Shown here piece after piece: positions 13,001 through 44,637 of a stretch of 48,063 bases of DNA. The position numbers and the translations under genes are program-made. A model generated the notes under the pieces. The model worked only from the letters and a program-made list of their open reading frames with translations. It ran no database searches and was not told where the DNA came from. Location: IMG/VR virus record IMGVR_UViG_3300037132_000181, positions 1 to 48,063 of that record; one strand, 5' to 3'. How positions within the stretch are numbered: the stretch's first letter is position 1; every line of letters begins with the position of its first letter. The stretch is from a virus.

Positions 13001-13453
13001 TCAAGATCCAGTGGTAGCCGTCGGCTCTTCGTCTGCCCAATATTCTTGCAGCGTCATCGACGGCGACACCTTCAAAATCGTCGTCACGTCCTTGCACCAC
13101 ATGGTTGAATTTCCTGCCCATTTCTTGGCGAACTGCTCAAAGGTCATGGTGGGCAGGTAGACGTGGCTCACCCCCCGCCGGCAGTTGTTCAGTTTCTCGT
13201 ATAGGGCCGTCCAGCCAATGAACTTGGTGAGGAACTCGGTCACCCACGATCCATCGTGATACCCACCACCGTATTCCTTCAAAAAGTCGCTGATATCCCC
13301 AGGGTTGTTAAAATAGTCAGGCACACTGCCCTGGACGTTGGCACCCTCGGTCTGAGCGATGGCTCGTGCTAAATCCCACGTCTTGTCGCCTCGCGGCCAC
13401 GTTGCCGGGTCGTAGGTGATGAGCATGTCGGGCGTGATGCCGATTATTTCCAT
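13001..13453 (-). CDS. lysozyme-like / transglycosylase-like endolysin, 150 aa
   Basis: It probably degrades host peptidoglycan at lysis. The N-terminal region contains LARAIAQTEG with a likely catalytic Glu at residue 36, followed by NNPGD at 49-53, the arrangement seen in small lysozyme-fold muramidases of phages. The rest is helical with conserved-looking Trp and Tyr residues. No signal peptide is seen, so it would need a holin for release, and several small membrane proteins are encoded just upstream. It overlaps the stop of the papain-like protease gene. Confidence 0.6.
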   Translation of the reverse strand: MEIIGITPDMLITYDPATWPRGDKTWDLARAIAQTEGANVQGSVPDYFNNPGDISDFLKEYGGGYHDGSWVTEFLTKFIGWTALYEKLNNCRRGVSHVYLPTMTFEQFAKKWAGNSTMWCKDVTTILKVSPSMTLQEYWADEEPTATTGS

Positions 13454-17735: not shown

Positions 17736-20264
17736 CTAGTTCCGCAAACTCCACGAGATGCAACCTGGATTCGTCGTGAACGCCGCGGCCGTCGAGATGG
17801 TAAACGATGTACCCGGAACCCGCGCAGAGACGTAGGGTTGCTGGAAGTTGGTGTTGCACGTCACGCTGAGCCGAGTTCCCATGCTCGCGTCGAAAGCCAA
17901 GCTGATATCGCTTTTGGCTGTCACCGCCGTCGTGTTCACTACGACTGACGTTGCACCTCCCGATGCTATCGTGACAGCTCCAGCTGTTGCGCTGGTGCAA
18001 GTTCCGCCAGCACTGGAGCAGTTAGTCGTGTCAGAGAGCCCCGAAAAGGTGCCTGTCCCCCGCACGATCAAATCCTTTGTAGAGATTTGTCCGTCCGTCG
18101 TATACCCGCCCGTTGGCTCCATCACGTTGAAGCCGGGACTGCTGCACCCAGTCGCGTAGCTGGTCAAGGTGTTCCAGTACTCGACATTGACGCCGATGAA
18201 ATTGCGGTTGGCTGAACCATTGGCAGCGCACAAAGCCAAGATTCCAATCCCGGTGTTATTTCCGCCGCCGTAATACCCATTCACCGTTATGTTGGTAAAG
18301 TTTACGTTAAACGACTCACCTAGATTGATACCCCCGGCAGAGACGGGTAGCTGCGCCAGTATCTGTCCACCCGTCCATGTCATCCCGGTGCAACCGGTGT
18401 TTTGGCTGTTCTCGTTCGGGCCGCAGAAAAGGCCCCAGTTCGTGAAGAATGACAGAATTGCACCATTGAAGTTGACACCCCCATTTATCATGTCAAACCC
18501 GTCACCATGTAATGCCTCCTCAAATAATGGGTTGGTAAGGGTCCAGCCCGCAGGGTCAGAGCCATAAGTGTTTTGCGCTGCATAGGCTTGATCTACCCAA
18601 TTCACAACGCTGGAAATGTTGACAGTGGACCCGGTTCCTGTACCTCCCGTGGTAGATTGACCCGCTCCTGCGGCACAAGAAGCGCCAGTAAATCCAGGCA
18701 CAGGATATGCCCCAATTTGCGTGACGCCCCCTGATCCGCTGCCGTTGTTGACCTGTTGAATCTGCACTTTTGCGCCACAGGCAAGCACCAGAAATGCTCC
18801 AACATCCCCTTGCACGTAGTTTATTCCGCCTGCCGTTGGCGTTGTGTTGAAAATTACGTCACTGACAGTTCCGCCGACATAGGTCCATGTCGGGGTGAGA
18901 ACCCCGGATGTACCACCCGCCGTGGTTTTGAAGATATGACCGCCCCCAAGTGGGTAGTCCTGTACGCACGAACCAGCAGGGTAGGCGTGGTTGGTCCACC
19001 ACTCGTAACACTCATGTCCCGCCTCCTGGAACGTAACTCCACCGCTGGTTACCGTTGCTCCTGTACCTGTAGGCCAAGTAGGTGGTGTGGTTCCAGACGT
19101 TCCAGGCGCGGTGACGATGTAAATGTGGCCAGTGACTGTATCACGGGGCATGACAAGCTGATTGGCAAAGTAGGGCACACCAGCGACGAATTGGCTGCCT
19201 TGCCAGTAGGCACTAGAGACCCCCCCTGCTCTGCTATCATCTCCATACCACTGGTTGACGACTCCATTGCCTCCTTCGATGTCCATTCCGGTGCAATTCC
19301 CTGACCTGATATTCTCCCATACATCCGTGTAGCTCGTGTCTTCACGTATCCCGAAGCGGCTATAGAATAGAAGAAGATTTGAAGCATTGAGTTGTGGGTT
19401 GTGTTGGTTTGGCATCCCGCCGTCCGCATCTATGGCTGTGCTGAATCCGCATCCGCCGACCGCCGCATCCGGCCCTTGAATGGCTAAATCGCGCACCGTC
19501 AACTTGGTGTAGGTGTTGGTGCTGCGATTGATGATGGTGTCATTCGGGGTATTGTTCTTGATGAAGGTTTCAAGCTGACCCATTCCCTGGATGGTTACTT
19601 CTCCTAGGCTTCCCAACATATTTGACAGGTTTTCTAAGATGAAAGCGGGGCGGTAATTGTCCACATTCTTGGTCAGGATCGAAGAGGGAAGAAGGGCAGT
19701 AAGCGGTTGCGTAATGTCCCATGTCGTCCAAGGATAAGCACTCCCTGGCAAGGTCCAGCCGTTTAGGATGCAAGTCGAATAGGGAGCGCACAAAAGAGCC
19801 CCGTCCACATAGAGCTGAGCAAGATCCGTTGATGCGATTGTGGTCCAATTGGGGATGGTCGTTAGATCAATAACTGTGGTACCGTTACCAAGGCCCGTTG
19901 ACCTTACCGGAACGGTAATCGTCCATGGACTCGATATCCCTGTTCCTGAAAACCGGAGATCGTATGTCCCAGGAAGTACAAAAAACTGCCAAAATGAAGT
20001 GTCGCTATATGATGTGAATGGGTTTGCCTTGACGCTTCCGGTTGCCGTCGAGAAGATGGGGGCTGGATTCGTGGTTCCGGTGGCGTAGACCGTCACCGTA
20101 GCCCCAGGAAAGGTCTGCATCCATTTGGTGGTGGTCGGAGGCAGCCCCCCCACCGTAACCGCCTTGCCCCCCTGCTGAACATACCCACTTACCGATACAT
20201 ACTGCCCCAGTGCATGACCTGCGCTGAGAAGAAGAAGGGCGAGAACGGCGAGTATCCGCTTCAT
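17736..20264 (-). CDS. secreted beta-helix tail-spike/adhesin-like protein, 842 aa
   Basis: The ATG at 20264 is chosen because it directly begins a Sec-type signal: MKR, an Ala/Leu core, and a cleavage-like Ala-Leu-Gly before QYVSV. A beta-sandwich of about 90 residues follows. A long region with right-handed beta-helix character (repeated short strands with Asn and Gly turns, about 190-700) comes next, then a C-terminal domain rich in paired Cys and Thr/Ser strands (about 735-842). This looks like a receptor-binding or carbohydrate-active protein. An export signal on a phage tail protein is unusual; see findings. No catalytic residues were identified. Confidence 0.6.
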   Translation of the reverse strand: MKRILAVLALLLLSAGHALGQYVSVSGYVQQGGKAVTVGGLPPTTTKWMQTFPGATVTVYATGTTNPAPIFSTATGSVKANPFTSYSDTSFWQFFVLPGTYDLRFSGTGISSPWTITVPVRSTGLGNGTTVIDLTTIPNWTTIASTDLAQLYVDGALLCAPYSTCILNGWTLPGSAYPWTTWDITQPLTALLPSSILTKNVDNYRPAFILENLSNMLGSLGEVTIQGMGQLETFIKNNTPNDTIINRSTNTYTKLTVRDLAIQGPDAAVGGCGFSTAIDADGGMPNQHNPQLNASNLLLFYSRFGIREDTSYTDVWENIRSGNCTGMDIEGGNGVVNQWYGDDSRAGGVSSAYWQGSQFVAGVPYFANQLVMPRDTVTGHIYIVTAPGTSGTTPPTWPTGTGATVTSGGVTFQEAGHECYEWWTNHAYPAGSCVQDYPLGGGHIFKTTAGGTSGVLTPTWTYVGGTVSDVIFNTTPTAGGINYVQGDVGAFLVLACGAKVQIQQVNNGSGSGGVTQIGAYPVPGFTGASCAAGAGQSTTGGTGTGSTVNISSVVNWVDQAYAAQNTYGSDPAGWTLTNPLFEEALHGDGFDMINGGVNFNGAILSFFTNWGLFCGPNENSQNTGCTGMTWTGGQILAQLPVSAGGINLGESFNVNFTNITVNGYYGGGNNTGIGILALCAANGSANRNFIGVNVEYWNTLTSYATGCSSPGFNVMEPTGGYTTDGQISTKDLIVRGTGTFSGLSDTTNCSSAGGTCTSATAGAVTIASGGATSVVVNTTAVTAKSDISLAFDASMGTRLSVTCNTNFQQPYVSARVPGTSFTISTAAAFTTNPGCISWSLRN

Positions 20265-20337
20265 AGCTTTATCCCCCACTGTTCAATTTTGAACATAAGC
20301 CTTTCCGAAAAGTTGCCAGAATCCATCCATTCGCTCA

Positions 20338-22629
20338 TCAGTTTATCGTCCCACTTCCCCAAGTTCCCGACCCCAGCGTCAACGGCGCTGAGCCGGTGCC
20401 GCTGAGCGTCACCACTTGCGTGCTCCCAGCTACCCCGCCGTCATTATCTGTGACGCTGAGGGCATCGCTGTATGACGGAAATCCCGCAGGCGAAGGATTG
20501 AAGGTCACCGTAACCGTGCATTCTTGCAGGTACGTCAGATTAACAGGGAAACTACTGCCACAGGTACCCCCTGAAATCGCGAATGATGTGCCCGTTGTGA
20601 TTGCAATACTCGAAATGGCCAAGGTAGAGCTTGCGCTGCCAACATTGCTGATGGTGACTGTAAGCGACGCTGAAGTTGTCGAAACTTGCTGCGTCCCAAA
20701 GACAATCGAACTAGGCCCCACTTGCGCAGTTGGGTTGCCTCCACCCCCACCACCAGACCCGAACTCGATGGCTCCCCTCGCATAACCCGTAGTCGAACCG
20801 AACGTGGTTCCATAAAAATCCTGGTTAAACGGCGGCGCATTAAAGGGCGCGGGCAACGATGAGTCACCGATGGCCCACTGACTATTGCTGGTTGCCGCAC
20901 CAGTGAATGGAGAGTTTGGCTTATAGTTCCCGTGCACACTGTCTACGAATGGGTTGGTCTGACCAGAGCTGTGGCAAACATCGGATGACGATGCTGCACT
21001 ACAAGTCCACACGGAATCCGCGACGCCCGAATTCACCAAACTGTTGTGGGCTTGTTGGACCGAGAACCCGGAAGCCGCCCCGCCTTTTGCTATAAGTACA
21101 ACGCCTACCGCCGAGCTACCGAACGTGCCGCCAGGAACATTGTAAAACAGGTTATTCTTGCTTGTACCCGAAGATGAGCAACCGTAGCTGTTGGAGAGGC
21201 ATCCCGTTCCCGCTCCACCGTGCTGGGCATAAGCGCAATTGTTAGAACCTGTGCAAAGCAGGTACATCCCTTGCTTGCCCCCATTCAGGGGGACGTTGAC
21301 GAACGTATTGTTGAGCAGCAGGGCGTTTTGAGTGACGCCGGAATCCCCGTTGTCATCCGAGAAGAACGATGAGACTCCACAGACTCGAAAATCGGTGGAA
21401 TCGCAGCCAACGATGTTGGAGAAAATGTAGAGGCCGTTCGTCGTTCCCCCATAGGGACTGCTGGCAATGTGCATGTTATTGATGGTGCTGGTGCCGGATG
21501 CGTTCCACAGCACGTTCCGATAAAAGTAGATCGGCCCACTCACCTCAGCGTAAGCCCCTTCGCCGAACAGAATCATGTTGCTGTGGTATGTTGGAGTTGA
21601 GCGATTGCTGGAAACGTAATTATTGAGAAATGAAACGTTGTACAGGTTGTAGCCGCTCATGCCTCCTGAATTATGGATGTAGACGCCCTGGACTAGACTG
21701 TTAGAATAAGATCGCGTGTTGCCCCCGCCAAAGGACACCCAACCCCCTGGAATGAAATCCAGACCAACATAGGCTAAGCCTGTAGGACATGAGCCAAGGG
21801 GAACAACCACCGTGTTGCTGGATATTGAGGTGGCATGGGTATCGTGGAAAAGAATCGTGCTGGCAGAATTCCACCCGCCAACTTTGTCCGTAGTGCCATC
21901 CCCACCAATATCGCCAGCCGTGGTGATCGTGGCAGCGCCGCCAGACCATGAGCATCCAGTGACCGCCTGCGGATACCACGGCATCAAGCCATATCCAGCC
22001 ACCTCGATGTTTTTGACCGTCACGTCAGTCTGGGCTCCGGTAGATGTACAGCCTATACTCACTCCACCCTGCCCAAGGAACTTGAAACCCTGCCCTCCAA
22101 GGGTTCCAGCCGGGTCGGTTACTCCCGTGATTCCGTCAATCACATAATGGTTTCCACAGACCTTCCATTTTCCACCCGTTGAGGCTTGAGGGTCAGTGGT
22201 GTCATTGTAAAGGGAGGCGACTGAGGTACCCATTCCCGCTGTCCATCCAGAGTCGGTCTGGGGTCCGTTACCCGCTGTGTAGAGCGGCAGACTGCCTCCG
22301 GGGCAATAGGGTACAGTTGTGTTGTTGCTTCCCGCTGAACAGTCCACGGCCTTGTAGATATAAATTATGGATGACCCGGAATCCGCGTCATTGAAGCTGT
22401 AGGAGAGGTAATAGTTCAGCGATCCTGCGGACATGTAGGCGGCACCGCGCACTAGGGTTCCAGAAGCAGGGAAATCGAGGTACGCACCGGCACCCCCTGG
22501 CGACGCGGCACAATCCCATTTAGTACCGTCTCCGTTGTTTGCGCAATCTCCAACCGGACGCACGTGGTAAATCTGTGCGCTGGCGCTGACTGAGAACAGG
22601 AGTGCAAGAAGCAAGAGAAGTTTTTTCAT
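20338..22629 (-). CDS. secreted beta-helix protein with choice-of-anchor D domain, 763 aa
   Basis: A signal peptide (MKKLLLLLALLFSVSASA) precedes QIYHV. Residues about 25-620 have parallel beta-helix features (Asn-rich turns, repeated short strands, NNTFVN and NNLFYN-type rungs), like pectate-lyase-fold or tail-spike proteins. After a Gly6 linker, residues about 640-745 match a choice-of-anchor D / ASPM-SPD-2-Hydin-type Ig domain (SSIVFGTQQV..., then ECTVTVTFNPSPAG). That domain is abundant in Acidobacteriota and hints at the host. Start overlaps the stop of the previous gene (TGATG). It is probably an adhesin or depolymerase, but no active site was recognised. Confidence 0.65.
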   Translation of the reverse strand: MKKLLLLLALLFSVSASAQIYHVRPVGDCANNGDGTKWDCAASPGGAGAYLDFPASGTLVRGAAYMSAGSLNYYLSYSFNDADSGSSIIYIYKAVDCSAGSNNTTVPYCPGGSLPLYTAGNGPQTDSGWTAGMGTSVASLYNDTTDPQASTGGKWKVCGNHYVIDGITGVTDPAGTLGGQGFKFLGQGGVSIGCTSTGAQTDVTVKNIEVAGYGLMPWYPQAVTGCSWSGGAATITTAGDIGGDGTTDKVGGWNSASTILFHDTHATSISSNTVVVPLGSCPTGLAYVGLDFIPGGWVSFGGGNTRSYSNSLVQGVYIHNSGGMSGYNLYNVSFLNNYVSSNRSTPTYHSNMILFGEGAYAEVSGPIYFYRNVLWNASGTSTINNMHIASSPYGGTTNGLYIFSNIVGCDSTDFRVCGVSSFFSDDNGDSGVTQNALLLNNTFVNVPLNGGKQGMYLLCTGSNNCAYAQHGGAGTGCLSNSYGCSSSGTSKNNLFYNVPGGTFGSSAVGVVLIAKGGAASGFSVQQAHNSLVNSGVADSVWTCSAASSSDVCHSSGQTNPFVDSVHGNYKPNSPFTGAATSNSQWAIGDSSLPAPFNAPPFNQDFYGTTFGSTTGYARGAIEFGSGGGGGGNPTAQVGPSSIVFGTQQVSTTSASLTVTISNVGSASSTLAISSIAITTGTSFAISGGTCGSSFPVNLTYLQECTVTVTFNPSPAGFPSYSDALSVTDNDGGVAGSTQVVTLSGTGSAPLTLGSGTWGSGTIN

Positions 22630-23363
22630 CAGTTATGCACCAGCACGCATCCCGACATTGCGATCATCAAACTTGCCGCGCCAGACCATGTGTGGGTTAT
22701 AGGCCCCACGGTTCCAGGTCCGATGTCGGTATATACCTTGCTGTTCGTTAAGCCTGTGACAACCGTTCCGGTCTGCGTTTGATTGGTGGTCCACGTCGGG
22801 ACCGAAGAAGTCTCGTTTGCAAAATCTGTCAGCGTCAAGTCGCCAGCATTAGCGGCCAAGGTGCGAGACAACGAGGTAGCCGTGGTGCCCGTCACAAAGG
22901 TTCCGTTCTTGGTAGGTGTGGTCTGGTTTACGCCGGTAAAGCTGCGGACGAAGATCGCCATCGTAGTGGCGGTGGTCCATGATGCCGTGATCGTTTTGAC
23001 TCCCGTGTCCGTGGTTGTTAACACATACTCCATGGTTCGGAACCAACTAATTGAAGTGCCGCTATCCGTGTTAGCCACCAAAGAGAAGGTCTCTGCGCCA
23101 ATCGCTACCGAAGTAATAGCCACCGCATTGTTGCGAAAGATTAAGTCAACTACGATACCCCGCGTCAAACTCGCACCCCCTAACGTGATCGCCTGAGTCT
23201 TGCTGGTAACGTTAGAGTTAACATAGCTGCTGGCAACGTTGTTCTCGTAGGCAACGACAGTGCCGCCCGCCGCCGTGGGCGCAGGCGGTGGCCCAAAGGT
23301 GGGAATCCCCTGCCAGGGATGCAGTAGCAACGCCAGAAGCCATGCGATGGGTAGGAAGCTCAT
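22629..23363 (-). CDS. tail/adhesin-like protein with hydrophobic N-terminus, 244 aa
   Basis: The ATG at 23363 overlaps the upstream stop as ATGA. The first 20 residues (MSFLPIAWLLALLLHPWQG) form a hydrophobic signal or anchor. The rest is Thr/Val/Ser-rich beta sequence of jelly-roll or sandwich type, with ITLGGASLTRG and ENN-type loops, ending in a hydrophobic strand. It lies in a coupled chain with two other signal-bearing proteins. It could be a minor tail or receptor-binding protein; the family is not recognised. Confidence 0.5.
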   Translation of the reverse strand: MSFLPIAWLLALLLHPWQGIPTFGPPPAPTAAGGTVVAYENNVASSYVNSNVTSKTQAITLGGASLTRGIVVDLIFRNNAVAITSVAIGAETFSLVANTDSGTSISWFRTMEYVLTTTDTGVKTITASWTTATTMAIFVRSFTGVNQTTPTKNGTFVTGTTATSLSRTLAANAGDLTLTDFANETSSVPTWTTNQTQTGTVVTGLTNSKVYTDIGPGTVGPITHTWSGAASLMIAMSGCVLVHN

Positions 23364-24211
23364 CGTGTCACCGTCAGATTGAGAGTCACCGCGCCGGGAG
23401 TAACCGTGATCGAACTCCAATTGCACACGTCCACTCCGATGTATCCAGACTTCGGTACCGCTGTTACCGCGAGTCCTCCAGTAGTAACCGGTGTAAACCC
23501 GCCTTGTGCCTTGATGCTCAAGTTCGGTGTCATCACAACGGTGTCCGTCGCCAGCACGCCTGTTGCAGCCACACTGTTTGTCGTGCCATCGACGATCGTT
23601 GTGCAGGCCGTCGTGAGTAGCGGTGTCGTGTCGAGCGTCAGCGTGCCGTGGAATATAGTTCGAGTATAGGTGTATGGCCCGTCCGTTCCAAACGACCCTT
23701 GGAAATGGCAGGACGCATCCACGTCATTCCTGAGGTGGTTAGCAAGCGGAGTAATGTTCGAGGTGCGGCACACTTGATCCTGCATCGGGAGCGTGGTGCT
23801 AGTGGCAGTAGCATGATCGAAAGAAATTCCCCCCGTACCGCTGAATTGGAAAACGTTATTATTATCAACATAGATGCAGATATCGGCGCTGTTCGCCGCG
23901 TTTCGCCAGCACACTTTGTCAACGTTGTTGGCTAAATTCAATTCTCCACTTGTGGCAGGATTGGCGGAAGGAGAGGTAAGGGGAAAAGATGCGCCGCCAT
24001 TCGTCTCGAGCCAACCGTAACTTGATCCGCCATTCGAGCTTCCGCACCAGTAGATGTTGCCGTTCGTTATGTCGTTCCACTCCATGATGGGCGAGCAGCC
24101 GCCGGTCGGTGCCCCACTGCCAATCAGCCGCACCACGTTGCCGTTGCCTTGCGCGTGCGCAAGACCAGCCAATGCAGCAAACAACACTAATCCTAAAATC
24201 AGCCGTTTCAT
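23360..24211 (-). CDS. signal-peptide-bearing tail/adhesin-like protein, 283 aa
   Basis: The ATG at 24211 overlaps the upstream stop as ATGA and opens a clear Sec signal (MKRLILGLVLFAALAGLAHA) followed by QGNGN. The mature protein is Gly/Ser/Thr/Asn-rich. Residues about 30-150 include Trp- and Cys-containing beta strands. The last 80 residues form a beta domain with paired Cys similar in style to the end of the 842-residue neighbour, typical of trimeric tail-tip domains. Export plus tail-tip style suggests a receptor-binding component. Confidence 0.55.
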   Translation of the reverse strand: MKRLILGLVLFAALAGLAHAQGNGNVVRLIGSGAPTGGCSPIMEWNDITNGNIYWCGSSNGGSSYGWLETNGGASFPLTSPSANPATSGELNLANNVDKVCWRNAANSADICIYVDNNNVFQFSGTGGISFDHATATSTTLPMQDQVCRTSNITPLANHLRNDVDASCHFQGSFGTDGPYTYTRTIFHGTLTLDTTPLLTTACTTIVDGTTNSVAATGVLATDTVVMTPNLSIKAQGGFTPVTTGGLAVTAVPKSGYIGVDVCNWSSITVTPGAVTLNLTVTR

Positions 24212-24726
24212 GATTGCACCGCCGAAGGCAAGTAGTATTGACTTCCAGAACTCGCTACGCACCAATAATTCGCTGTGTTGTCACAGTCCGCAAACCCCGC
24301 TGGCCCCTGATAGAAGAGCGTCAAAAACAGGTCATGAAAGGCATTCGCCCCCGCTGTTGTGGGGAGTGCCTTGGAGACCCCCAAAAACAAACTCGCCGTG
24401 AGCGGATTGGCGTTCACGCCCTGCACCATAATGTTTTGGCACGGGAAGCTGAGCACCATGTACTCGCCAGCCGCGTGGTTCTTTTTGAATATCCCGCTGA
24501 CGCTGGTCGGGCTAACCACCTGAACCTGAATGGCCAGTTCCGTTGACGTGCCACCCGTCGAAACCATGAGCACCGTATCGCTGTTCACGAACATGGAACT
24601 GTCGCCCACAACGACCGTCTGGCTAATCAAGTCATTGCCGACAACCTGGTTGGTGAGGGTGGTCGCGATGAGCGGCTGCGCGACCGTGGTGCACGAATAT
24701 GGCTTGAAACACCGTGGTACTGACAT
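24208..24726 (-). CDS. structural/tail protein, 172 aa
   Basis: The ATG at 24726 is chosen because AGGAGG lies five bases ahead; a TTG six codons upstream falls inside the palindrome. The protein is beta-rich with Thr/Val runs, contains a QNIMVQGVNANPL strand pair (about residues 97-109) and ends with a Cys- and Trp-containing domain. Its stop overlaps the start of the next gene. It is probably a tail or baseplate part, inferred from the surrounding operon. Confidence 0.45.
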   Translation of the reverse strand: MSVPRCFKPYSCTTVAQPLIATTLTNQVVGNDLISQTVVVGDSSMFVNSDTVLMVSTGGTSTELAIQVQVVSPTSVSGIFKKNHAAGEYMVLSFPCQNIMVQGVNANPLTASLFLGVSKALPTTAGANAFHDLFLTLFYQGPAGFADCDNTANYWCVASSGSQYYLPSAVQS

Positions 24727-26926: not shown

Positions 26927-27600
26927 AAGTGTTCAACCCAAGTCTTTGGGTCCAAAAAGATTTTGTATCCGTGCTCGCGGGCATTCTGGCAAAAACCAAC
27001 GATCGCTTGATCTTCCGGCAAAAAATGCGCCACGCGCGCCACGTCTGCCTTCATCACCAGACATGAACCGGCTGAACTGATTGGGTACAGGCCCGTTGGA
27101 CTCTTGTCGATGAGGCAGTAGTGGAAGGGGAAGTTGGGGCCGAAGCACACACCGTCAATTCCCCTTAAACCCCATGAATCATAGTGCCTTCCTTGGTAAA
27201 TGCACATCGGCGCGACTACGTCCACTTCGGGCCGTTCAAGGTGGCCCATCAACGCCAGGATGGCGCCCGGCACCCAGCGCAGGTCCGCCTCGATGTACAC
27301 GAACACGTCGAATGACGCATCGATCCGCGCCAGTACGTGTTCCCACGTCCAAGACGACTGCCGGAACCTTGCCGGGTCGCCCACCGAACCGAATGCCGGC
27401 CCGCCATGGCTTGCCTGGCTCACCGCACCGTTGAATCGCGCCCGCAGGCGTTCGTACGTGGCGTCCTTCGAGTCGCCCTCGACAATTATCGGGTGAAAAG
27501 AATGTTCCGGCGCCGCGGCCGCCAGCGCAGCGATTTGGTCGGCATGGCGATCGACGTAAGACTCCCCGTCACGGACTATTGAGCCGATGGCGATCTTCAT
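26923..27600 (-). CDS. glycosyltransferase, Anp1/GT62-like, 225 aa
   Basis: The ATG at 27600 overlaps the GT9 gene stop as ATGA. The N-terminus is MKIAIGSIVRDGES. Around residues 100-145 there is a FVYIEADLRWVPGAIL segment followed by CIYQGRHYDSWGLRG, closely resembling Anp1/GT62-type transferases where an acidic pair binds metal and nucleotide sugar and a DSW-type motif follows. The C-terminus has HFLPEDQAIVGFC, like the acceptor side of these enzymes. Family placement comes from pattern recognition, not a search. Confidence 0.65.
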   Translation of the reverse strand: MKIAIGSIVRDGESYVDRHADQIAALAAAAPEHSFHPIIVEGDSKDATYERLRARFNGAVSQASHGGPAFGSVGDPARFRQSSWTWEHVLARIDASFDVFVYIEADLRWVPGAILALMGHLERPEVDVVAPMCIYQGRHYDSWGLRGIDGVCFGPNFPFHYCLIDKSPTGLYPISSAGSCLVMKADVARVAHFLPEDQAIVGFCQNAREHGYKIFLDPKTWVEHL

Positions 27601-28862
27601 GCCATCACCTCTTCCGCCCACAATGCGCGGTCTTTCACCCACGCCCCCAACTCTTCCATGAGGCGGTCGACCACCGGCTTGAAGCTGACTGGTTCTTGGT
27701 TCCTGAATAGCCGCACACTGGGGTACCACGACGACCTGTCCTGTTCGCGCCAGAATTTCCAGTCACTGCCGAGGGGTGTGAATACCCAAGTGGGACGCCC
27801 CATTGCCGCGGCAAGGTGGAACACGCTTGAATCGGCACTGATCACCAAGTCCAGTCCCGCCACGACGCGCGCCGTATCGAGCCACGTCTCGCACCCATCT
27901 AGGCCGCTCACGCACCAGTCAGGCGTCTCGCCTTTCACCAAGCTGATCCAATCCACTGGCAGCGTCTTTAACGGCGCAAGGTGCTCGTCCTGAATTCCCC
28001 GCATCTTGCGGTACACACTCAGCATCTCGCCGGCTTTCCATGCAATTCCGACGCGGGGACGTTCGCCCGCCGGACGGGGTGCAACTTGCACCTGAATGTA
28101 TGGTGCGTCCATGCCCAGCGGGACCCAATCGACTTCCGGCCGGCACTTCCGCAACTCCCACATAACCGACCACAGTGGCACCTGGTAGTCAAACTGGCTC
28201 GCATCCACCCCATCGGCTTCTGACATGAATCGGTCGATCCAAGGATGGTGGGCCAGCAGACTCTCCTGCGACTTGAAGGCATGGAACGTGACGTGCGCTC
28301 CCAACTCCTTCAGTGGACGAAGGTACCGCAGCAGCCAGAAGATGTCGCCAAACCCACCTTCCCGCAGCACGAGGATTTTCTTTCCGCTCAACTCCTCGCC
28401 GCGCCAGACCGCCAAGTTGGGCACGTACACCGCGCTCCGCTTGCCGAGCCGTGCAGCCTCCCAAATGACCGGTGTGATCTCGTATTTCCGCTCGCGCAGC
28501 AACGCAGTCGCCAGTGCGTACTGCGTATTCTCGTTGCTCGACCACGCGGTCGCCGTCACAAAATGCCGCAGGGCCGCATCAAATTGACCCGTCTCCTCAT
28601 AGACCAGCCCGAGGTTGTGGTTGACCGGCGCCATGTTGGGTCCCAACTCAAGCGCCGTTCGCAGCGCCGTTATGGCCTCGTCGTAATGCCCCAGGTACTT
28701 GTGGCAGATTCCAAGGTTATTCCAGTGGCCCCAGTTTTTCGGTTCCCGCGCCACGTCCCCCTGAATGTACGGCAGCGCCTCGATGGGGTACCCACCATTC
28801 AGGATGGTTTCGCCCAGCGTCAGCTTCTGCTGCCCGAATTCCGCGCCGATCATGAACGGCAT
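27597..28862 (-). CDS. TPR-GT9 (heptosyltransferase-like) protein, 421 aa
   Basis: ATG at 28862 with GGGGGATTG ahead. Residues about 25-120 contain tetratricopeptide-like helices (WNNLGICHKYLGHYDEAI, then NHNLGLVYEETGQFDAAL). Residues about 155-400 form a GT-B glycosyltransferase of family 9: GKKILVLREGGFGDIFW at the N-lobe, and a C-lobe with ISADSSVFHLAAAMGRPT, the nucleotide-sugar site of heptosyltransferases. TPR-GT9 fusions are widespread in bacteria, so the gene may have been captured from a host. It is the first gene after the capsid-operon terminator and is coupled to two more transferases. Confidence 0.85.
   Translation of the reverse strand: MPFMIGAEFGQQKLTLGETILNGGYPIEALPYIQGDVAREPKNWGHWNNLGICHKYLGHYDEAITALRTALELGPNMAPVNHNLGLVYEETGQFDAALRHFVTATAWSSNENTQYALATALLRERKYEITPVIWEAARLGKRSAVYVPNLAVWRGEELSGKKILVLREGGFGDIFWLLRYLRPLKELGAHVTFHAFKSQESLLAHHPWIDRFMSEADGVDASQFDYQVPLWSVMWELRKCRPEVDWVPLGMDAPYIQVQVAPRPAGERPRVGIAWKAGEMLSVYRKMRGIQDEHLAPLKTLPVDWISLVKGETPDWCVSGLDGCETWLDTARVVAGLDLVISADSSVFHLAAAMGRPTWVFTPLGSDWKFWREQDRSSWYPSVRLFRNQEPVSFKPVVDRLMEELGAWVKDRALWAEEVMA
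28078..28092. repeat. palindrome copy inside the GT9 coding region
   Basis: GGTGCAACTTGCACC is a full-consensus copy within the GT9 gene, encoding Gln-Val-Gln-Val-Ala-Pro in a linker before the C-lobe. Together with the copy at 25638 it shows the motif is tolerated within genes. Confidence 0.75.
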
Positions 28863-28876
28863 CAATCCCCCTTATA

Positions 28877-37243: not shown

Positions 37244-37825
37244 CTACCGTTTTTTACTGGTTCTTTGCATGCGGTCAAGAACTTCGGCTGCGGCCTTTGC
37301 CAGATTTGCCTCTGATGGGTTATAGGTACGGGGGTTTACCCCACCACCGATCTCAGGGAGGTCAACTGATTCTATAGGCCTTCCCACCCCAACCTTCATC
37401 GCAAGCAACTCACTGACATCGGAATTCAATATCTGTTCTCGGGTCCAACCTCCGTCCACCACCAAATCGATGTATATCTTTATTTTTCTGTGAGCACATC
37501 GATGGGAATCTGATGCCCCCAAACCGTCAATTCCGATCACCGGAGATGCGCAGACGAAAACCTTGACGTCCAATGTATCCGACTCCGCTTCCCACCGGCC
37601 AATAAATATGCCTCCTCCCATCCTGGGAGTTTTGTTGTCGGCAGGTTCCCACCCGGTCCATTTAAGCTTGAATCCCTTGTATTCCCCTTCCACGTACGAC
37701 CTCAGACCGTGCAGCTTGACGACATCAGGAAGGGGCTCTGTGGACTTGTCCACGCATGGAGATTCCGACCATCCTTTCGGGTTCAGTCCGATAGACCCAG
37801 TCTGATTAATTTTATTTTCGTTCAT
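37244..37825 (-). CDS. hypothetical protein with scaffold-like C-terminal motif, 193 aa
   Basis: Beta-rich central region (GGGIFIGRWEAES, VFVCASPVIGIDGLG) with a charged C-terminus. Residues about 160-187 carry GGGVNPRTYNPSEANLAK, closely matching the C-terminal end of the putative scaffold. GGAGGAACC precedes the ATG. The shared peptide suggests both proteins dock on the same partner, possibly the capsid or procapsid. Confidence 0.5.
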   Translation of the reverse strand: MNENKINQTGSIGLNPKGWSESPCVDKSTEPLPDVVKLHGLRSYVEGEYKGFKLKWTGWEPADNKTPRMGGGIFIGRWEAESDTLDVKVFVCASPVIGIDGLGASDSHRCAHRKIKIYIDLVVDGGWTREQILNSDVSELLAMKVGVGRPIESVDLPEIGGGVNPRTYNPSEANLAKAAAEVLDRMQRTSKKR

Positions 37826-38682
37826 GGTTCCTCCGGGTGCAACGTTGCAGTTGTTACTTCTTCTTCATCTGCCTCTGGTCTCTCGACGTAGGCAAATCTT
37901 TCCAGGGCAGACCGTACATGTGCCGTCAACATCCTGTGGCGTTGGGCGTGTGGATTTTCTTCGCCATCGTCACAAACCTTCTTCACGGCATGGCGGATGT
38001 CGTAGGTAGTCGCCTCAGTAGAGAGCTTCAACGCCTCAATCAATTCATTGCGCAATGGAGCGAGCAGTTCAATCTCCCGCTTAGACCGTTGTTCCGAAAA
38101 CTTATCGGCATCCTCTTGCCGTCGCTTGAACGATTCGCGTTGATATTCTATTTCCAGTTCAACCGCCATGCGGTCGCGCACCGTGCGCGCTGCAACCTCG
38201 CCAAACTTTTTAGAGATTTTCAAAGAAGCCAGTTCGTTGTTCCATCGCCTGACACGGACTGTCGGCCCCTCGCGGCGTACCCCGTCGATCAGTAGCTTCA
38301 ACAGCGCGTCCTGCGGTACGACTACGGGATTAAGAACGGGCTTCTTGGCCATGCGCCAGACACCACGCAGTACGATCAGCCCGCAGTGAGTAGGCACGTC
38401 CGACTTCTTGATGAGGTCGTCTTGGCACGCAAATACCACCCCGCAGGAGTACTTCAAATATGATTGCCACTTACCTGACGTCACATCGCTTTGGAAATCG
38501 GACCTCGTCACCTTGCACTCATAACTCATCGGAGCCGGATGCGCAAAGCTGCGCCAAATGGCGTACACGTCCGGTCGCGGCGAACCTGCCGGCCCCAACT
38601 GCATATCGCGCCAGACCATCCGGTTTTCGCCCGCCAGGTGGTCCGCGAGCGAGTTCATCAGTTCATCGTGACCCAGCGCCAT
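37822..38682 (-). CDS. MmcB-like PD-(D/E)XK nuclease, 286 aa
   Basis: The ATG at 38682 forms a TGATG overlap with the terminase stop and has GGAG ahead; a TTG just upstream is the alternative. Asp38 in RPDVYAI and Glu55 and Lys57 in SYECKV are arranged as the PD-(D/E)XK motif of MmcB/DUF2161-like DNA repair nucleases, followed by TRSDFQSD and SGKWQSYLKY, which fit the same family. The C-terminal half is a charged helix. It may process packaging ends or replication intermediates. Confidence 0.65.
   Translation of the reverse strand: MALGHDELMNSLADHLAGENRMVWRDMQLGPAGSPRPDVYAIWRSFAHPAPMSYECKVTRSDFQSDVTSGKWQSYLKYSCGVVFACQDDLIKKSDVPTHCGLIVLRGVWRMAKKPVLNPVVVPQDALLKLLIDGVRREGPTVRVRRWNNELASLKISKKFGEVAARTVRDRMAVELEIEYQRESFKRRQEDADKFSEQRSKREIELLAPLRNELIEALKLSTEATTYDIRHAVKKVCDDGEENPHAQRHRMLTAHVRSALERFAYVERPEADEEEVTTATLHPEEP
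37836..37851. repeat. palindrome copy at a gene junction, within coding end
   Basis: GGTGCAACGTTGCAGTT-type copy overlapping the last codons of the nuclease gene and adjacent to the GGAGG used by the gene at 37825. Confidence 0.75.
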
Positions 38683-41600
38683 CAATTTATCTCCACCAAC
38701 TCGTTGTGGTTCATGAACGAATTCGGGTCGACGCGACTCACCGCCTCATGCAGCGGGTCCAGCGCCACACCGCCGCGGCCTCGCGCGCGCGTGGCCGACA
38801 GTGCCGGCACCCTGGCGTCCGGGTTTGATTCCTTACATGTTGGGCACGACCAGTTATGCGGGTTCTCCGCCGTGCTGTCGTGGCCTCGCAGGCACCGCAT
38901 CATGTACAGGCCCGACTTCGGATCGTTCGGGTCCACTACCCGCAGCCGCTCGTGCGGGATGATAATCCGCCCACGGTCCAAATCGAAGTCCTGGTCGTGG
39001 TGGCAAAAGAGCGTAATAATGTTCGACATGATGGCATCGTCATGTTTCCCACCGGATGCCTGGCCCGACTCGTCGTCGTCTGCCCGTTTGATGAAGCTGG
39101 GCATCTCGAACAGGAAGTCTTTCGACTTGATCACGATAATCTTCTGGCGGCACCACTCGATGAATGTGGTAATGAGCATGGGCTTGGTGCGCGCGTTCGT
39201 GACCCACCCCAAGGTACGCGTGATCATGTTCATGCTGTCGAAGTGTTTCCACCGGTACAGCTTGTCGTAGCCCATCATAATGAGCCGGAGTTGGGCTTTT
39301 TCGCCGGGCCCGTTTTTCACCTCAAAAGCCACTTCGCATTCATTGTAGACCTTCGCCAATACGTAGGCCGTCATGCCGAGGCTTCCCGCATCTCCCCGTC
39401 CGCGCCATTCTGCCACCTGGACGTCTGGCTCGTCGTGGCCGCGCCCGCACTTATGGATGCTCAGCACCCCGTAGTCGCCTTCTTCCTCGCCGTACGCCGC
39501 GTCACCCCCCATGTAGTACCGTGCTCCCTGCTGCGGCATCTCCCACACTTTCAGGTTCATCTCGTCTTCGTTGTGGCTGATGTTCTGCTGGCGGCATTCC
39601 GGATTGCAGCACAGCCGGCCAGGCCCGTGTTCGGTGCCCTTGCAGTGGAACGTGAAGTCGGCCCGCCACTCGCCCACCCACACCGGATCGCACGCCGTCG
39701 TCTGCACGTAGCGGTACACATCCCGCGGGAAGACCATCTTTCCGTGGACCTGGAATCCTTCCTCGGCCGTCATGGCAAACTCTTGCAGGAAGGATTGCTC
39801 TGTCTCCTGGTCGCGCACCTTCGACTTCTGCTGGCGGTACCAGCCTAGCTGTCCGTCGGTCAGCATGACACCCGCGCCGCCGGTCGAACCGCAGCGGTGG
39901 CATTCGGCCATGCCCGCGCCTCCAGAATAATACATGGCCGAACATGTCGGGCAGTGCTTCCATTCGAGCAGATACCGCTCCCGAATAACCTGCTCGTCCT
40001 TGGTCGGCTTGAAGGCGACCGGGACTTGCGTCGTGCGCGACCTCTCCATGAAGCACGGCAGGAACATGGCGTGCCACAGCGCATTCTTTCCCTGCTTCGC
40101 GTAGTGGTGCCAAGTGTTGTACCACCAGCCCGACGCCCCGTAAGGCTTCGACTCCATGATGCCGACACACCCTGGGCGGCTCACCATCTGGCTCAAATCC
40201 TCGTCGATAATCTTACGGGCCACCTTGTCCGGGTAGCTGCCAACCTCCGTGATGTGGACGTCGCTGAACGGCTTTCCCTGAGCAAATGCGGACATTTTCT
40301 TGATGCTGGCGCCTATGATGTAGCTGTTCAGACCGCCGTAGCCCGACTCATCTTGAATGCCCATCACCATGCGCGACTCGATGTGCTGGCGAGCGACGTT
40401 AGGTTTCAGCCACCACGGCAGGTTGTTCATGAACCACTGGAAGATGGACAGCTCGTACGTCGCCTGCCCTTCGTCCTGTGCTAATATAAGAGATATTACC
40501 TGACTATGAAAGCATACGCGCCAGACCAGCATCGCAATAGAGAACGTAGAATTGTGGGACACGAACCCATTGGCGATGTAAGTCTTAGTGGAGGTCTGAA
40601 GGTCTATCATTCGCTGCTGCGGGAGCAGTTCCATTTTGACGATCTTGGACCAAGCCAATCCCCCATTCCTTCCTTTCTTTCCGCCCTTTCCAGGAAGCTC
40701 TTTGCCCTCCCACCAATTTCGACACAGAAATCTGGTGGGTCTTGTTTTTCCAAGCATCTTGAATATTTGTCCCATTCTCCCAATGAGAACCTTGGCAACT
40801 GGTTTGTCGCCATACTTTCCATCTTTTCCAGACTTTGTTTTTCCCCCGCCTTTGCGCTTGTCGATATCAAGCCGCCAGTCGTATCCCTCGCTCTGGACAT
40901 ACGCTTGAATACGGTCAAGAACCAGTCCGAAAGACTGTGCGGCGCACAACTCGACACCGGCACCGTGTTTAGACCTGAGACACCCCTCCCCATCAAGGAT
41001 TCCACCAAACCAATAGTCGTCGGGAGTTGAATCCCTCCAGGTCTTACATATTGTTCTTATTTCGTCTCCGACTCGCATATCCCGAACGCTCACCCATTTC
41101 GTTCCGACCCCACCCCTTTGCTGGGATAAAAGTCTATGGTCAGGAGTGGCAACCAATTCCTCTCCATTGTCCATGGTAAGCTTCACGGCGTAATCGAAAA
41201 CATCGCGCTTAGCCTCTACTACCCCCTCCTTCATTCTCCTGGCGAAACGGCGCCTTCCCTCTCCGGCAGATGGAAAATCTTCGTCCGTAGCTACCACTCT
41301 ATCTCCAACCTTCAGGTCGTCGATCCGAACCCATCTTAAATCGCTAGTCAAAACCTTTGTATCTGGATGAAAACAAACGCCTAATTGTCTTGCTTTATGG
41401 ATCAAGACCCAGCCCGGCCTCCCCTTTCCCCACAGGTACTCGATGGTTTCCAGAACGAGTTCCTGTGTATCGAACAGGTCGAGCGTTGTGGGTTCACCCG
41501 ACCGTGGATGCTGTATCCAGAAGTAGTTTCCGAACAGCCACCGGGGATCTCGCCGGCACTTGATGATTTGACCCTTGATCCAGTCCTTAATCTCCGAACG

Positions 41601-41723
41601 CAGCGACGCCCACGCAAGGCCCTTTGCGACCTCGTGCGTCACACCCTTCTGGCGCTCGTAGACCGATTCCAGTACCTTGTCGAGGTACTCTACGGCGTCA
41701 ACGACATTGGGATCGCGTTTCAT
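38682..41723 (-). CDS. terminase large subunit with intein, 1013 aa
   Basis: ATP-driven DNA packaging motor with nuclease. The spliced protein is about 738 residues. Residues 1-116 end in HKARQLGV, the first half of the Walker A P-loop; after the intein (117-391) the sequence resumes with STFSIAM. Acidic Walker B-like SDVHITEV lies near 487-494. Cys591/594/608/611 form a zinc-knuckle pattern, and more Cys pairs follow near 694-710 and 944-963. The nuclease domain has Asp741 in GGDAAYG, Glu801 in AFEVKN and Asp895/896 in GKHDDA. Start overlaps the 61-residue gene as ATGA. Unspliced protein could not have a working ATPase. Confidence 0.93.
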   Translation of the reverse strand: MKRDPNVVDAVEYLDKVLESVYERQKGVTHEVAKGLAWASLRSEIKDWIKGQIIKCRRDPRWLFGNYFWIQHPRSGEPTTLDLFDTQELVLETIEYLWGKGRPGWVLIHKARQLGVCFHPDTKVLTSDLRWVRIDDLKVGDRVVATDEDFPSAGEGRRRFARRMKEGVVEAKRDVFDYAVKLTMDNGEELVATPDHRLLSQQRGGVGTKWVSVRDMRVGDEIRTICKTWRDSTPDDYWFGGILDGEGCLRSKHGAGVELCAAQSFGLVLDRIQAYVQSEGYDWRLDIDKRKGGGKTKSGKDGKYGDKPVAKVLIGRMGQIFKMLGKTRPTRFLCRNWWEGKELPGKGGKKGRNGGLAWSKIVKMELLPQQRMIDLQTSTKTYIANGFVSHNSTFSIAMLVWRVCFHSQVISLILAQDEGQATYELSIFQWFMNNLPWWLKPNVARQHIESRMVMGIQDESGYGGLNSYIIGASIKKMSAFAQGKPFSDVHITEVGSYPDKVARKIIDEDLSQMVSRPGCVGIMESKPYGASGWWYNTWHHYAKQGKNALWHAMFLPCFMERSRTTQVPVAFKPTKDEQVIRERYLLEWKHCPTCSAMYYSGGAGMAECHRCGSTGGAGVMLTDGQLGWYRQQKSKVRDQETEQSFLQEFAMTAEEGFQVHGKMVFPRDVYRYVQTTACDPVWVGEWRADFTFHCKGTEHGPGRLCCNPECRQQNISHNEDEMNLKVWEMPQQGARYYMGGDAAYGEEEGDYGVLSIHKCGRGHDEPDVQVAEWRGRGDAGSLGMTAYVLAKVYNECEVAFEVKNGPGEKAQLRLIMMGYDKLYRWKHFDSMNMITRTLGWVTNARTKPMLITTFIEWCRQKIIVIKSKDFLFEMPSFIKRADDDESGQASGGKHDDAIMSNIITLFCHHDQDFDLDRGRIIIPHERLRVVDPNDPKSGLYMMRCLRGHDSTAENPHNWSCPTCKESNPDARVPALSATRARGRGGVALDPLHEAVSRVDPNSFMNHNELVEIN
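40551..41375 (-). mobile_element. intein with single LAGLIDADG motif, 275 aa
   Basis: The intein starts at Cys (CFHPDTKVLT, block A), has LVATPDH in block B, and ends TYIANGFVSHN with Ser as the next extein residue, so Cys1, penultimate His, terminal Asn and Ser+1 are all present and splicing should work. Between the splicing blocks, about residues 122-132, YWFGGILDGEG is a LAGLIDADG-type motif. Only one motif is seen in about 100 residues, so the endonuclease might act as a dimer or be decayed. The insertion lies in the P-loop, a common intein target. Confidence 0.93.
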
Positions 41724-41905
41724 TTGTAAAGTTTTTGAATTTGTATCTGCTCGGCCGCGGGATTCATGCGGTTCAATACTTTAATCCAAACCGACCGGAC
41801 CCCAAGGTCGAGAAGTTCCTTCTTGTTCTTCTCTACATCTGAAGGAGAAACCGATCCTTCCTTGTATGAAAATACGAAAATGTCTCCATCTTTTGCCTTT
41901 ATCAT
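41720..41905 (-). CDS. hypothetical small protein, 61 aa
   Basis: ATGA overlap with the terminase start and a gap to the paralogue gene containing a palindrome copy. Mixed charged/hydrophobic sequence with a DVEKNKKELLDLG helix and a VWIKVLNRMNP strand. Not recognised. Confidence 0.5.
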   Translation of the reverse strand: MIKAKDGDIFVFSYKEGSVSPSDVEKNKKELLDLGVRSVWIKVLNRMNPAAEQIQIQKLYK

Positions 41906-41916
41906 GGTCCATCCCC

Positions 41917-41933
41917 AGGTGCAAGTTGCAGTT
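41917..41933. repeat. junction palindrome copy
   Basis: AGGTGCAAGTTGCAGTT overlaps the TAA stop of the terminase-nuclease paralogue (41932-41934) and precedes the 61-residue gene. Confidence 0.8.
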
Positions 41934-42744
41934 ACGACCTACTCACCGGAATTTCCGGCCTTCCCTTCTCAACGTTAAAGTCCGAATCGTGGTGACAGAA
42001 AAGGCAAATCATGTTGGCCTTAATCACGTCATTGGAGAACAAAAAGTCTCTCGACTTTATGACGATGAGTCTTTCTCGGCACCACATGATGAAAGTCGAA
42101 GTCAGCATGGAAGCCGTCCTTGCGTTGGTCATCCAACCCGGAACCTCCAGGCAGCGCTTTTCCTCGTAGACCTTCCATCGATAAAAGTTTGAAAATCCTT
42201 TCGCCATCAACTCTTGCTGAATCCTCAACCCATGATCGCAGGCGCAGTCAATCGCCACTTCGCAGTCATTGTAATCTCTAGAGAACTTCCTTATTCGTTC
42301 GGAAACAACCCAACTTCCAGAATCACCAAACATGCCTCTCCATTGTGCGACTTGAACGTCTGGGAATTCTCGTAGGCCGAGGCGATGTATCGTGATGACG
42401 GCCGTGTTCATTCCTTTTCCGTAGCTTCCCACGACAACTGCCATATAGTATCGGTCGAGGTGGAAAGGAAGCTGCCACTGGATTAACCCTTGGTCAATTA
42501 TAGTGGACGGAATCGGAGGCCCAGGGAAGTTGGATGTTTTGCAAATGTAATCCCTGACATCTGAAGGCAGCGACTCGAAGTCGAATCTATCCCCGCCTTG
42601 ATGTTCTGGAAGAATATTGTTCAATGGGTTAAGTTTTTCATAGACTTCCGAGAGAGACGGTGTCCTTGACTTGGCTTCACATTCTCTCGCTCCGAGCATC
42701 CCGACCGCTCCAGCTATCCAGCCAAAAAATGAACGCCTCTGCAT
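41932..42744 (-). CDS. degenerate terminase-nuclease paralogue with TAT-like signal, 270 aa
   Basis: The ATG at 42744 follows GGGGAGGAAGC and begins MQRRSFFGWIAGAVGMLGA, a typical twin-arginine signal (RRSFF, hydrophobic core, cleavage-like CEA near residue 24). The C-terminal 170 residues align without doubt to the nuclease domain of the large terminase (DVQVAQWRG, YRWKVYEE, WMTNARTASML, IVIKSRDFLFS, LFCHHDSDFNV). Catalytic residues differ: the first Asp (GGDAAYG) is replaced by Val (VVVGSYG), the Glu site has Asp (AIDCAC), and the KHDDA region is shortened to SNDVIKAN. It looks non-catalytic. Function is unknown; see findings. Confidence 0.85.
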   Translation of the reverse strand: MQRRSFFGWIAGAVGMLGARECEAKSRTPSLSEVYEKLNPLNNILPEHQGGDRFDFESLPSDVRDYICKTSNFPGPPIPSTIIDQGLIQWQLPFHLDRYYMAVVVGSYGKGMNTAVITIHRLGLREFPDVQVAQWRGMFGDSGSWVVSERIRKFSRDYNDCEVAIDCACDHGLRIQQELMAKGFSNFYRWKVYEEKRCLEVPGWMTNARTASMLTSTFIMWCRERLIVIKSRDFLFSNDVIKANMICLFCHHDSDFNVEKGRPEIPVSRS

Positions 42745-42756
42745 GCTTCCTCCCCA

Positions 42757-42769
42757 GCTGCAAGTTACC
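42757..42769. repeat. degenerate palindrome copy
   Basis: CAGCTGCAAGTTACC retains half of the motif, just before the GGAGG of the paralogue gene. Confidence 0.5.
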
Positions 42770-42839: not shown

Positions 42840-43115
42840 TTACCGATCTTGTCCAGACAAGAATTTAGTGAGTTGATATTGCATCTTGTCGTAGGCATAC
42901 CCCGCTTTGTTGTAAAGCCCTGTGCTGATGTGCCTCTCCTGTTCCGCATGAAGAAGGGTCAACTCGGAGGCGGCACAACGATCTATCGCCGCAGCATTAG
43001 CCCTCAGTGCTTCGGCCACGTTCTTTCGGGCCACATTGTCGCGTTTCCCGGCCATGTCTAAAAACATATCCGCCTTCTCCAACGCCTTCCTTAATTGAAC
43101 CTCTCGTTTATTCAT
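42840..43115 (-). CDS. hypothetical helical protein, 91 aa
   Basis: Charged, mostly alpha-helical (LRKALEKADMFLDMAGKRD, ALRANAAAIDRCAASELT). ATGA overlap with the upstream gene. It sits between the small-terminase candidate and the terminase paralogue, so it might be part of the packaging complex, but no family is seen. Confidence 0.5.
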   Translation of the reverse strand: MNKREVQLRKALEKADMFLDMAGKRDNVARKNVAEALRANAAAIDRCAASELTLLHAEQERHISTGLYNKAGYAYDKMQYQLTKFLSGQDR

Positions 43116-43846
43116 AACTCCTCCTGATCCTGCTGCCCGAGCAATCGCTCGTCAAAAACCGTCTGCTCTCCGCCGCCGCTACCGTCAGCGACTTCCGCTT
43201 CCAAGATGACCTGCTCGAAGAAGTGAGGCGTCTCGTCCGACTTCTGCCCGTTCGAGCCCTCACCAAAATTCTGCTGGATTGCCACCCCCGGCCCGCGGCG
43301 CCCAACGCCATAGAAAGTTTCCAGGCTCTTTGCTACGGCCATGTTGCTCACCATGCCGTCGGGCGACTTGACGTTTTCCCGCATCGCTTCAAAGGTGTCC
43401 TTGACGATCTCCCGTGCGTACAGAGCCTTTGCCGCTACCAGGAATTCGTGCAGGCTCTTGTCGTTTCCGGGAATTATTTCGGGAAGGCTGGAGGTGTCGA
43501 TCACGGCCAGCGAGCGTTCTTCAGCGCGGTCCTTTATGGACTTGGGCCCGTCTTTCGGCTTGGCAACCTCTTTCCTCTGTAACGTCCTCAGATCGGGGTA
43601 CTCATCCAGAACATCCTTGTCCACCGCCCGGCCTCGCACGGCGCACGCGACACGGCGAATCGCCTTAACGATTTCTTCCGCGCCCAGGTCGAATCGCTTC
43701 TTGAGAGCGTCCAGTTCGACACCAGCGAGCGCTGCCGACACCACCTGAAAGTCCATCGTGTCAGGTTTAGCTTCTCCCGATATGGAGCGCTTCAGGACGG
43801 GCTTCAGCCAGTCGGGAATGGGTGAGGGGAGGTCGGGTTTAGGCAT
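43112..43846 (-). CDS. candidate terminase small subunit, 244 aa
   Basis: ATG at 43846 overlaps the upstream stop as TGATG, with GGAGG six bases ahead; a GTG one codon earlier is possible. Residues about 30-70 (VVSAALAGVELDALKKRF, then LGAEEIVKAIRRVACAV) look like a helix-turn-helix. The middle is mixed, and the C-terminal third is Gly/Glu/Gln-rich and disordered. Position upstream of the large terminase and a DNA-binding-like start fit a small terminase, but the match is not strong. Confidence 0.4.
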   Translation of the reverse strand: MPKPDLPSPIPDWLKPVLKRSISGEAKPDTMDFQVVSAALAGVELDALKKRFDLGAEEIVKAIRRVACAVRGRAVDKDVLDEYPDLRTLQRKEVAKPKDGPKSIKDRAEERSLAVIDTSSLPEIIPGNDKSLHEFLVAAKALYAREIVKDTFEAMRENVKSPDGMVSNMAVAKSLETFYGVGRRGPGVAIQQNFGEGSNGQKSDETPHFFEQVILEAEVADGSGGGEQTVFDERLLGQQDQEEL

Positions 43847-44610
43847 CACGCCCCTCCCGTAAAGCTGCTCATCAGTGCGGCGCGTGTGGCGGCGTCTTCG
43901 TCGTCAACGGGTGTATGCGCCACTCTCGCTGGCATGCCTGCTCCACCAGAAATCACCGCCACCGGACCCCGTGGCCGATTTGGCGCTGGAGCCGCCGGCC
44001 CGCGCACCGGCCCGCGAATCGCCAGCAAACACGACTCACGCACGGCCCGCTCTTCCGCTTCAAGATCAGGTATCCCGGACGTGCTGGAATGCTTGCACGA
44101 ATAAATCACGTCGCCATTGTGGACGAATTCTACCAGCACATCAACTATTTCCTGGTCGCCCATCTGGATGCGCGTGGGCGAGATGCGCCGTTCGGCCTTC
44201 CAGTTGCCCGACTCTACCTTGTCCACGTAGCCGTGCTCGACGATCGCAATGAACTCATCCGGCGGCACGATTTTACCGTATGCCCGCTCGATAGCCTCTG
44301 CATCCGTTTTCGGAGGTACATAGGTTTCGTCCTCCTGAGTGACCAATGGGTCGGGAAAATCCACGGGAGGCGCGGGCGCTCGGCGTGACAACCCGCTCGC
44401 ACCGCTCGGTGCATCCTGCGACACCTCCGACCCATCGACCGCGACGACCCCCACAGCGGTAAAGCCACAAAGTGGACATGCGAATTTAACAGCCGCGTCA
44501 TTGCCTTGAAGTAAGGTCAGCTTGCGCTGCAAAATGCTGCTCTCGCCAAGCGTGGCACAGGTTAGGCAATCCTTCACGCCGGAAATTTCCGTCCAATGAT
44601 AACGACGCAC
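43846..44610 (-). CDS. Cys-knuckle protein, 254 aa
   Basis: The N-terminus has a CLTC pair (near residues 15-18) and a CPLC pair (near 46-49), spaced as in a zinc-binding fold. The rest is Ala/Gly/Pro/Glu-rich with EEDETYVPPKTDAEAIERAY-like charged segments and an Arg/Pro-rich C-terminus. Zinc binding is probable; the biological role is unknown. Start is preceded by a palindrome copy at 44622-44637. Confidence 0.5.
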   Translation of the reverse strand: MRRYHWTEISGVKDCLTCATLGESSILQRKLTLLQGNDAAVKFACPLCGFTAVGVVAVDGSEVSQDAPSGASGLSRRAPAPPVDFPDPLVTQEDETYVPPKTDAEAIERAYGKIVPPDEFIAIVEHGYVDKVESGNWKAERRISPTRIQMGDQEIVDVLVEFVHNGDVIYSCKHSSTSGIPDLEAEERAVRESCLLAIRGPVRGPAAPAPNRPRGPVAVISGGAGMPARVAHTPVDDEDAATRAALMSSFTGGA

Positions 44611-44621
44611 TACCCCTCCCG

Positions 44622-44637
44622 AGGTGCAAGTTGCACA
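44622..44637. repeat. junction palindrome copy
   Basis: AGGTGCAAGTTGCAC-type copy between the stop of the 115-residue gene (44641) and the start of the 254-residue gene (44610). Confidence 0.8.

Follow-up and report, generated by a model that had tools for sequence, protein, structure and literature searches.

What could a phage gain from a second copy of its terminase nuclease domain that has lost most of the residues required for cutting, and that begins with a peptide resembling an export signal? The question is raised by a gene of a 48,063-base virus record (IMG/VR record IMGVR_UViG_3300037132_000181, the whole of which was analysed and is here called the window), in which coding occurs almost wholly on the minus strand. 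The gene (41932-42744, minus strand) starts with ATG and encodes 270 residues, for which translation, alignment, AlphaFold2 and Foldseek suggest a Tat-like leader, a linker, and a nuclease-dead, RNase H-like terminase domain. A first-pass annotation had placed this open reading frame correctly, in strand as in coordinates, and had described it as an exported-looking paralogue of the nuclease domain of the large terminase (TerL).

A second terminase nuclease domain beside TerL

TerL is encoded nearby (38682-41723, minus strand), and is a full-length protein of 1013 residues before splicing whose nuclease domain (38946-39566) retains every catalytic acid. Its Walker A region (KARQLGV^CFHP...VSHN^STF) harbors an intein of 276 residues (40551-41378, minus strand) with a LAGLIDADG-like stretch; a similar intein lies at the same TerL site in locus L068, and TerL inteins are already known, as in cyanophage Mic1 (PMC7156551). 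Two small reading frames flank the paralogue, one of 61 residues between it and TerL (41720-41905, minus strand; GC3 0.468), whose start is preceded by an exact match to the start-associated repeat described below, and one of 91 residues upstream (42840-43115, minus strand; GC3 0.576). The neighboring gene at 43112-43849 had been proposed as the small terminase, an assignment that could not be confirmed: it gives no Pfam match and only weak PHROGs matches, and it showed no similarity to the L067 gene that lies upstream of TerL.

BLASTP aligns the paralogue with the window TerL at 38% identity over 203 columns (E = 1e-41), while a domain alignment pairs its residues 84-269 (41938-42495, minus strand) with TerL residues 721-926 at 43% identity, and all of the shared motifs that had been quoted (DVQVA-WRG, YRWK, TNART-ML, VIKS-DFLF, LFCHHD-DF) are found in it. 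In a tree of the paralogue, the window TerL and 43 nuclease domains from IMG/VR loci, the first two are sisters (100/99), which bears out the suspected paralogy; their branch lengths, 1.34 for the paralogue and 0.44 for TerL, indicate that the paralogue evolved faster after the split. Homology to TerL is not significant in paralogue residues 25-83, and the idea that both proteins share a linker ahead of the nuclease domain was dropped, 354 of 2000 shuffles being equally good. The tree likewise rejected the free-standing nuclease genes of split terminases, which form a separate clade, as the source of the paralogue. The related phages of that clade encode the large terminase as two genes, one for the ATPase and one for the nuclease, and their active sites are intact.

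GC3 is 0.557 in the paralogue and 0.791 in the C-terminal extein part of TerL, and it is also low in the TerL intein and in both flanking small frames; this suggests that the paralogue did not arise by recent tandem duplication but had resided in a different genome or had long evolved separately. The paralogue is most likely, to judge from its sequence, an acquired or anciently duplicated TerL nuclease domain.

The predicted start of the gene is well supported by a Shine-Dalgarno-like GGGGAGG (42749-42755, minus strand) located 4 nt from the ATG at 42744, and by a phage-wide, start-associated repeat, TGCAACYTGCACCT, of which a degenerate copy with three mismatches lies 5' of the gene (42756-42769, minus strand). 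The repeat, which is near-palindromic (TGCAACTTGCACCT), occurs in 33 copies in the window against 7.1 expected (up to three mismatches, both strands), many of them just before gene starts, with sites such as 41917-41930, 44622-44635 and 12767-12780; in placement, but not in sequence, it resembles the start-associated sequences that cluster K mycobacteriophages carry (PMC3203893). Since the second in-frame Met of the paralogue is reached only at residue 16, the leader is very probably translated.

Direct pattern scans of IMG/VR, GTDB contigs, GenBank phages and plasmids yielded no orthologue of the paralogue, the GenBank phage scan giving one weak TerL match (E 8e-3). When full records were searched with a nuclease profile, each of 38 records had exactly one copy, as did 47 of 50 further records picked by capsid-protein similarity, the remaining three having none. 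Two terminase-nuclease copies occur in the window alone, and 85 related phage records, many of which are fragments and a few of which may be near-duplicates, hold one each. Neither the N-terminal 95 residues of the paralogue nor the two flanking small frames have a homologue in the loci compared.

Active site and predicted fold

The first catalytic Asp has indeed been lost, as claimed on first inspection, and the damage extends further. An alignment of 45 sequences contains five acidic columns that are unvarying in every other homologue with sequence there (44 aligned), and at these the paralogue carries V, D, a gap, N and D, with D239 as the sole survivor; four of the five strict acids are thus altered in the paralogue alone, a state at odds with that of an active nuclease. 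V104 (42433-42435, minus strand) replaces the first catalytic Asp (D104), and D166 (42247-42249, minus strand) replaces a strictly conserved Glu (E166) and is followed by C167 and C169 (IDCACDHG). N238-D239 (42028-42033, minus strand) takes the place of a conserved Asp-Asp (D238 to N), and a 21-residue loop deletion just before it removes one strictly conserved Glu. The change of D113 to N was also considered as a sign of inactivation and was dropped as uninformative, because this Asp is missing in three further homologues.

Structure prediction and comparison with the terminase nuclease, which had been proposed as a check, indicate that the terminase-nuclease fold is retained. AlphaFold2 assigns a pLDDT of at least 90 to 131 residues, comprising most of 91-250, and the best PDB matches of the model in Foldseek are the RB49 gp17 nuclease (E 1.6e-9), T4 gp17 and G20c, with a probability of 1.00 for RB49 and T4 gp17, as befits an RNase H-like terminase nuclease. 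In the model, the fold looks intact and the cutting chemistry gone. Both the ATPase domain (Walker A/B) and the C-terminal extension of TerL (residues 927-1013, 87 residues) are absent from the paralogue, which therefore should not make a packaging motor; their absence argues against its being an ordinary subunit of the packaging ring.

The N-terminal leader and similar leaders in related phages

The N-terminus of the paralogue, MQRRSFFGWIAGAVGMLGA, fits the default TatP expression RR.[FGAVML][LITMVF]. The leader proper (residues 1-24, MQRRSFFGWIAGAVGMLGARECEA; 42673-42744, minus strand) contains RRSFF at residues 3-7, followed by an uncharged stretch of 15 residues with a mean Kyte-Doolittle value of 1.47, the combination of motif and stretch looked for in Tat substrates, and a possible cleavage site between CEA and K. 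The twin-arginine-like start that had been reported for this protein thus holds at the level of the motif and finds no counterpart among curated profiles: neither Pfam nor NCBIfam matches the first 49 residues at E up to 10, in a setting where short models often miss single leaders. In cytoplasmic proteins that have RR close to the N-terminus, the TatP expression by itself gives 15% false positives (PMC1182353). The leader can be described as Tat-like in motif, and the case for export appears no stronger than when it was first made, while the cases for catalytic loss and for a retained fold have gained strength.

A scan for such leaders over 1.1 Mb of sequence (5,144 frames of at least 80 residues) produced seven candidate starts, namely the paralogue, two chance-looking frames, and four convincing leaders on small phage genes, these four presenting an N-terminal RR(S/G)F(F/L) and an uncharged stretch (L037:10813-11220, L067:2899-3303, L023:8762-9103 and L058:289-552). 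The first two are homologous through the leader itself (MxRRGFLxAL; 35% identity, E 8e-12), and have leaderless homologues in L037:8335-8778, within the same phage, and in L027:8067-8597, with a weak match at 37244-37825 of the window. A search of IMG/VR for RRSFFGW found 20 stretches, with a convincing protein start in L058 only. By sequence, small genes with a Tat-like leader turn up repeatedly in this phage group, and the leader is conserved in at least one instance. Given such a background rate, one Tat-like start among approximately 49 genes is not very surprising; its presence on a terminase paralogue is.

Two observations on these genes stand apart from the paralogue. The leader gene of L037 (10813-11220) is flanked by the two genes of a split terminase, that for the ATPase on one side and that for the nuclease on the other, and the homologues just listed from L037, L067, L027 and the window make up a small “WTGW” protein family in which some members carry a Tat-like leader and others lack it, L037 having both kinds.

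In other parts of the window, large fiber-like and other late genes (17736-20279, 20338-22629 and 23360-24265, minus strand) display Sec-type signal-like starts, such as MKKLLLLLALLFSVSASAQ, and 14458-15060 has a lipoprotein-like start; such starts are odd for virion proteins. A papain-family cysteine protease domain (PF00112) is encoded beside small late genes (13444-14448, minus strand), TPR repeats and a glycosyltransferase-family-9-like stretch are joined in one protein (27597-28865, minus strand), and a tRNA-Pro (tgg) is located among structural genes (12796-12870, minus strand).

Possible roles and known systems

The explanation that we prefer, if tentatively and at less than an even chance, is that a TerL nuclease domain acquired or duplicated long ago would have lost metal-dependent cleavage while keeping a stable RNase H-like fold, and would have gained a new N-terminal Tat-type leader, by which the folded domain could be anchored at, or moved across, the cytoplasmic membrane of the host. 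There it might bind DNA, or a partner in packaging or entry, without cutting, for example hindering or sensing the incoming DNA of competing phages. The more specific proposal, that an exported or membrane-anchored, nuclease-dead protein binds DNA or entry or packaging partners at the envelope and thereby serves superinfection exclusion or sensing, is unlikely as it stands. Phages are known to encode proteins of the cell envelope that react to incoming phage or keep it out, such as T4 RI (PMC8385771) and the Ltp lipoproteins (PMC3952083), and by analogy a Tat-carried, folded, putative DNA-binding domain devoid of nuclease activity would suit such an envelope role.

Nearly as likely as this membrane role is a cytoplasmic one, a somewhat doubtful reading in its own right, in which the dead domain would occupy DNA, TerS, the portal or TerL partners and so tune packaging, or would act as bait for host proteins that recognize TerL (Avs-type sensors), its N-terminus being a membrane tether, an interaction segment or irrelevant. 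In favor of this role are the position of the gene, with TerL on one side and the candidate small terminase on the other, and the closeness of the predicted fold to that of the real nuclease domain; moreover, the Foldseek matches include 8dgc, a terminase bound by Avs3, which indicates that TerL is targeted by host sensing. Against the cytoplasmic role count the absence of an ATPase domain and of TerL residues 927-1013 (for another TerL, contact of a C-terminal arm with the portal has been proposed; PMC5727402), and the Tat-like leader, which is odd on a cytoplasmic protein.

Just as doubtful as the cytoplasmic role is the possibility that the gene is a decaying remnant, that is, a functionless fragment of a TerL nuclease left by phage recombination, in frame by luck and with a fortuitous hydrophobic N-terminus. 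Its single occurrence, the several active-site losses together with the 21-residue deletion, a branch three times that of TerL, and its location in a low-GC3 stretch (0.557 against 0.791) with two small orphan frames would all be expected of such a fragment. When the TerL sequence was made to diverge neutrally in simulation down to 43% identity, however, only 2 of 500 runs stayed free of stops, while the 270 codons of the paralogue are open at approximately this identity, and the gene possesses a good ribosome-binding site, a start-associated repeat and a confidently predicted fold. Furthermore, at family-conserved, non-catalytic columns the consensus residue is kept at 18 of 28 positions in the paralogue, nearly as in TerL (20 of 28), whereas acidic positions are kept at 1 of 6 as opposed to 6 of 6 (Fisher one-sided 0.046, two-sided 0.066). 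This pattern favors a history in which selection acted on the fold but not on cutting, although inactivation of the active site could have come late in the history of the paralogue, after most of its divergence, and some of the losses may be recent, in a gene only beginning to decay. The remnant option raised by the first-pass annotation is thus weakened, in view of an intact frame after heavy divergence, a confident fold, and losses mainly at catalytic positions.

It is very unlikely that the former catalytic center was rebuilt into a cysteine or metal site (D166-C167-A-C169-D170-H171 with D239) in a Tat-carried cofactor protein: the paralogue has nine cysteines in 270 residues compared to four in the 210 of the TerL nuclease, a CxC lies at the former catalytic Glu loop, and redox cofactor proteins are frequent among Tat substrates, but drift can also enrich cysteine. 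Least probable of all is an assembly chimera or a wrong gene model, to which a metagenomic contig and a local dip in GC might point, but against which stand the unbroken coding on one strand, the ribosome-binding site, the phage-wide repeats on either side, and a nearest homologue that is the TerL of the same contig.

Comparison with known systems places the paralogue, by fold, with the TerL nuclease domains of T4 and RB49 gp17, G20c, P22, and herpesvirus pUL15 and pUL89, from which it differs in having a leader peptide and in lacking the catalytic acids, the ATPase domain and the C-terminal extension. In the open-licence literature searched, no terminase nuclease with an export signal was found. 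Stand-alone nuclease genes of split TerL (L017, L018, L020, L021, L023, L024, L027-L029, L035, L037, L038 and L085; approximately 275-370 residues) are nuclease-only frames like the paralogue; however, they have intact active sites, an ATPase-only partner gene and no leader, and belong to another clade. The paralogue does not behave as a subunit of this kind, the window TerL being full length with its own nuclease and the active site of the paralogue being lost. The Tat-like leader proteins of related phages share its type of leader, and their mature parts are unrelated to terminase. In phi29, the C-terminal domain of the packaging ATPase is a vestigial terminase nuclease that has lost cleavage and kept DNA binding (PMC7672431); a terminase nuclease fold without cleavage is common to phi29 gp16 and the paralogue, experimentally in the former and by prediction in the latter, but the phi29 domain is still fused to its ATPase and has no leader, whereas the paralogue is free-standing and has one. 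The nuclease-dead terminase domain found described, that of phi29, thus belongs to a packaging motor; if the membrane role proposed here is true, a free-standing dead domain with an export-type leader would represent a packaging domain reused at the membrane, and the Tat-like leaders on further small phage genes suggest that leader capture merits a wider survey.
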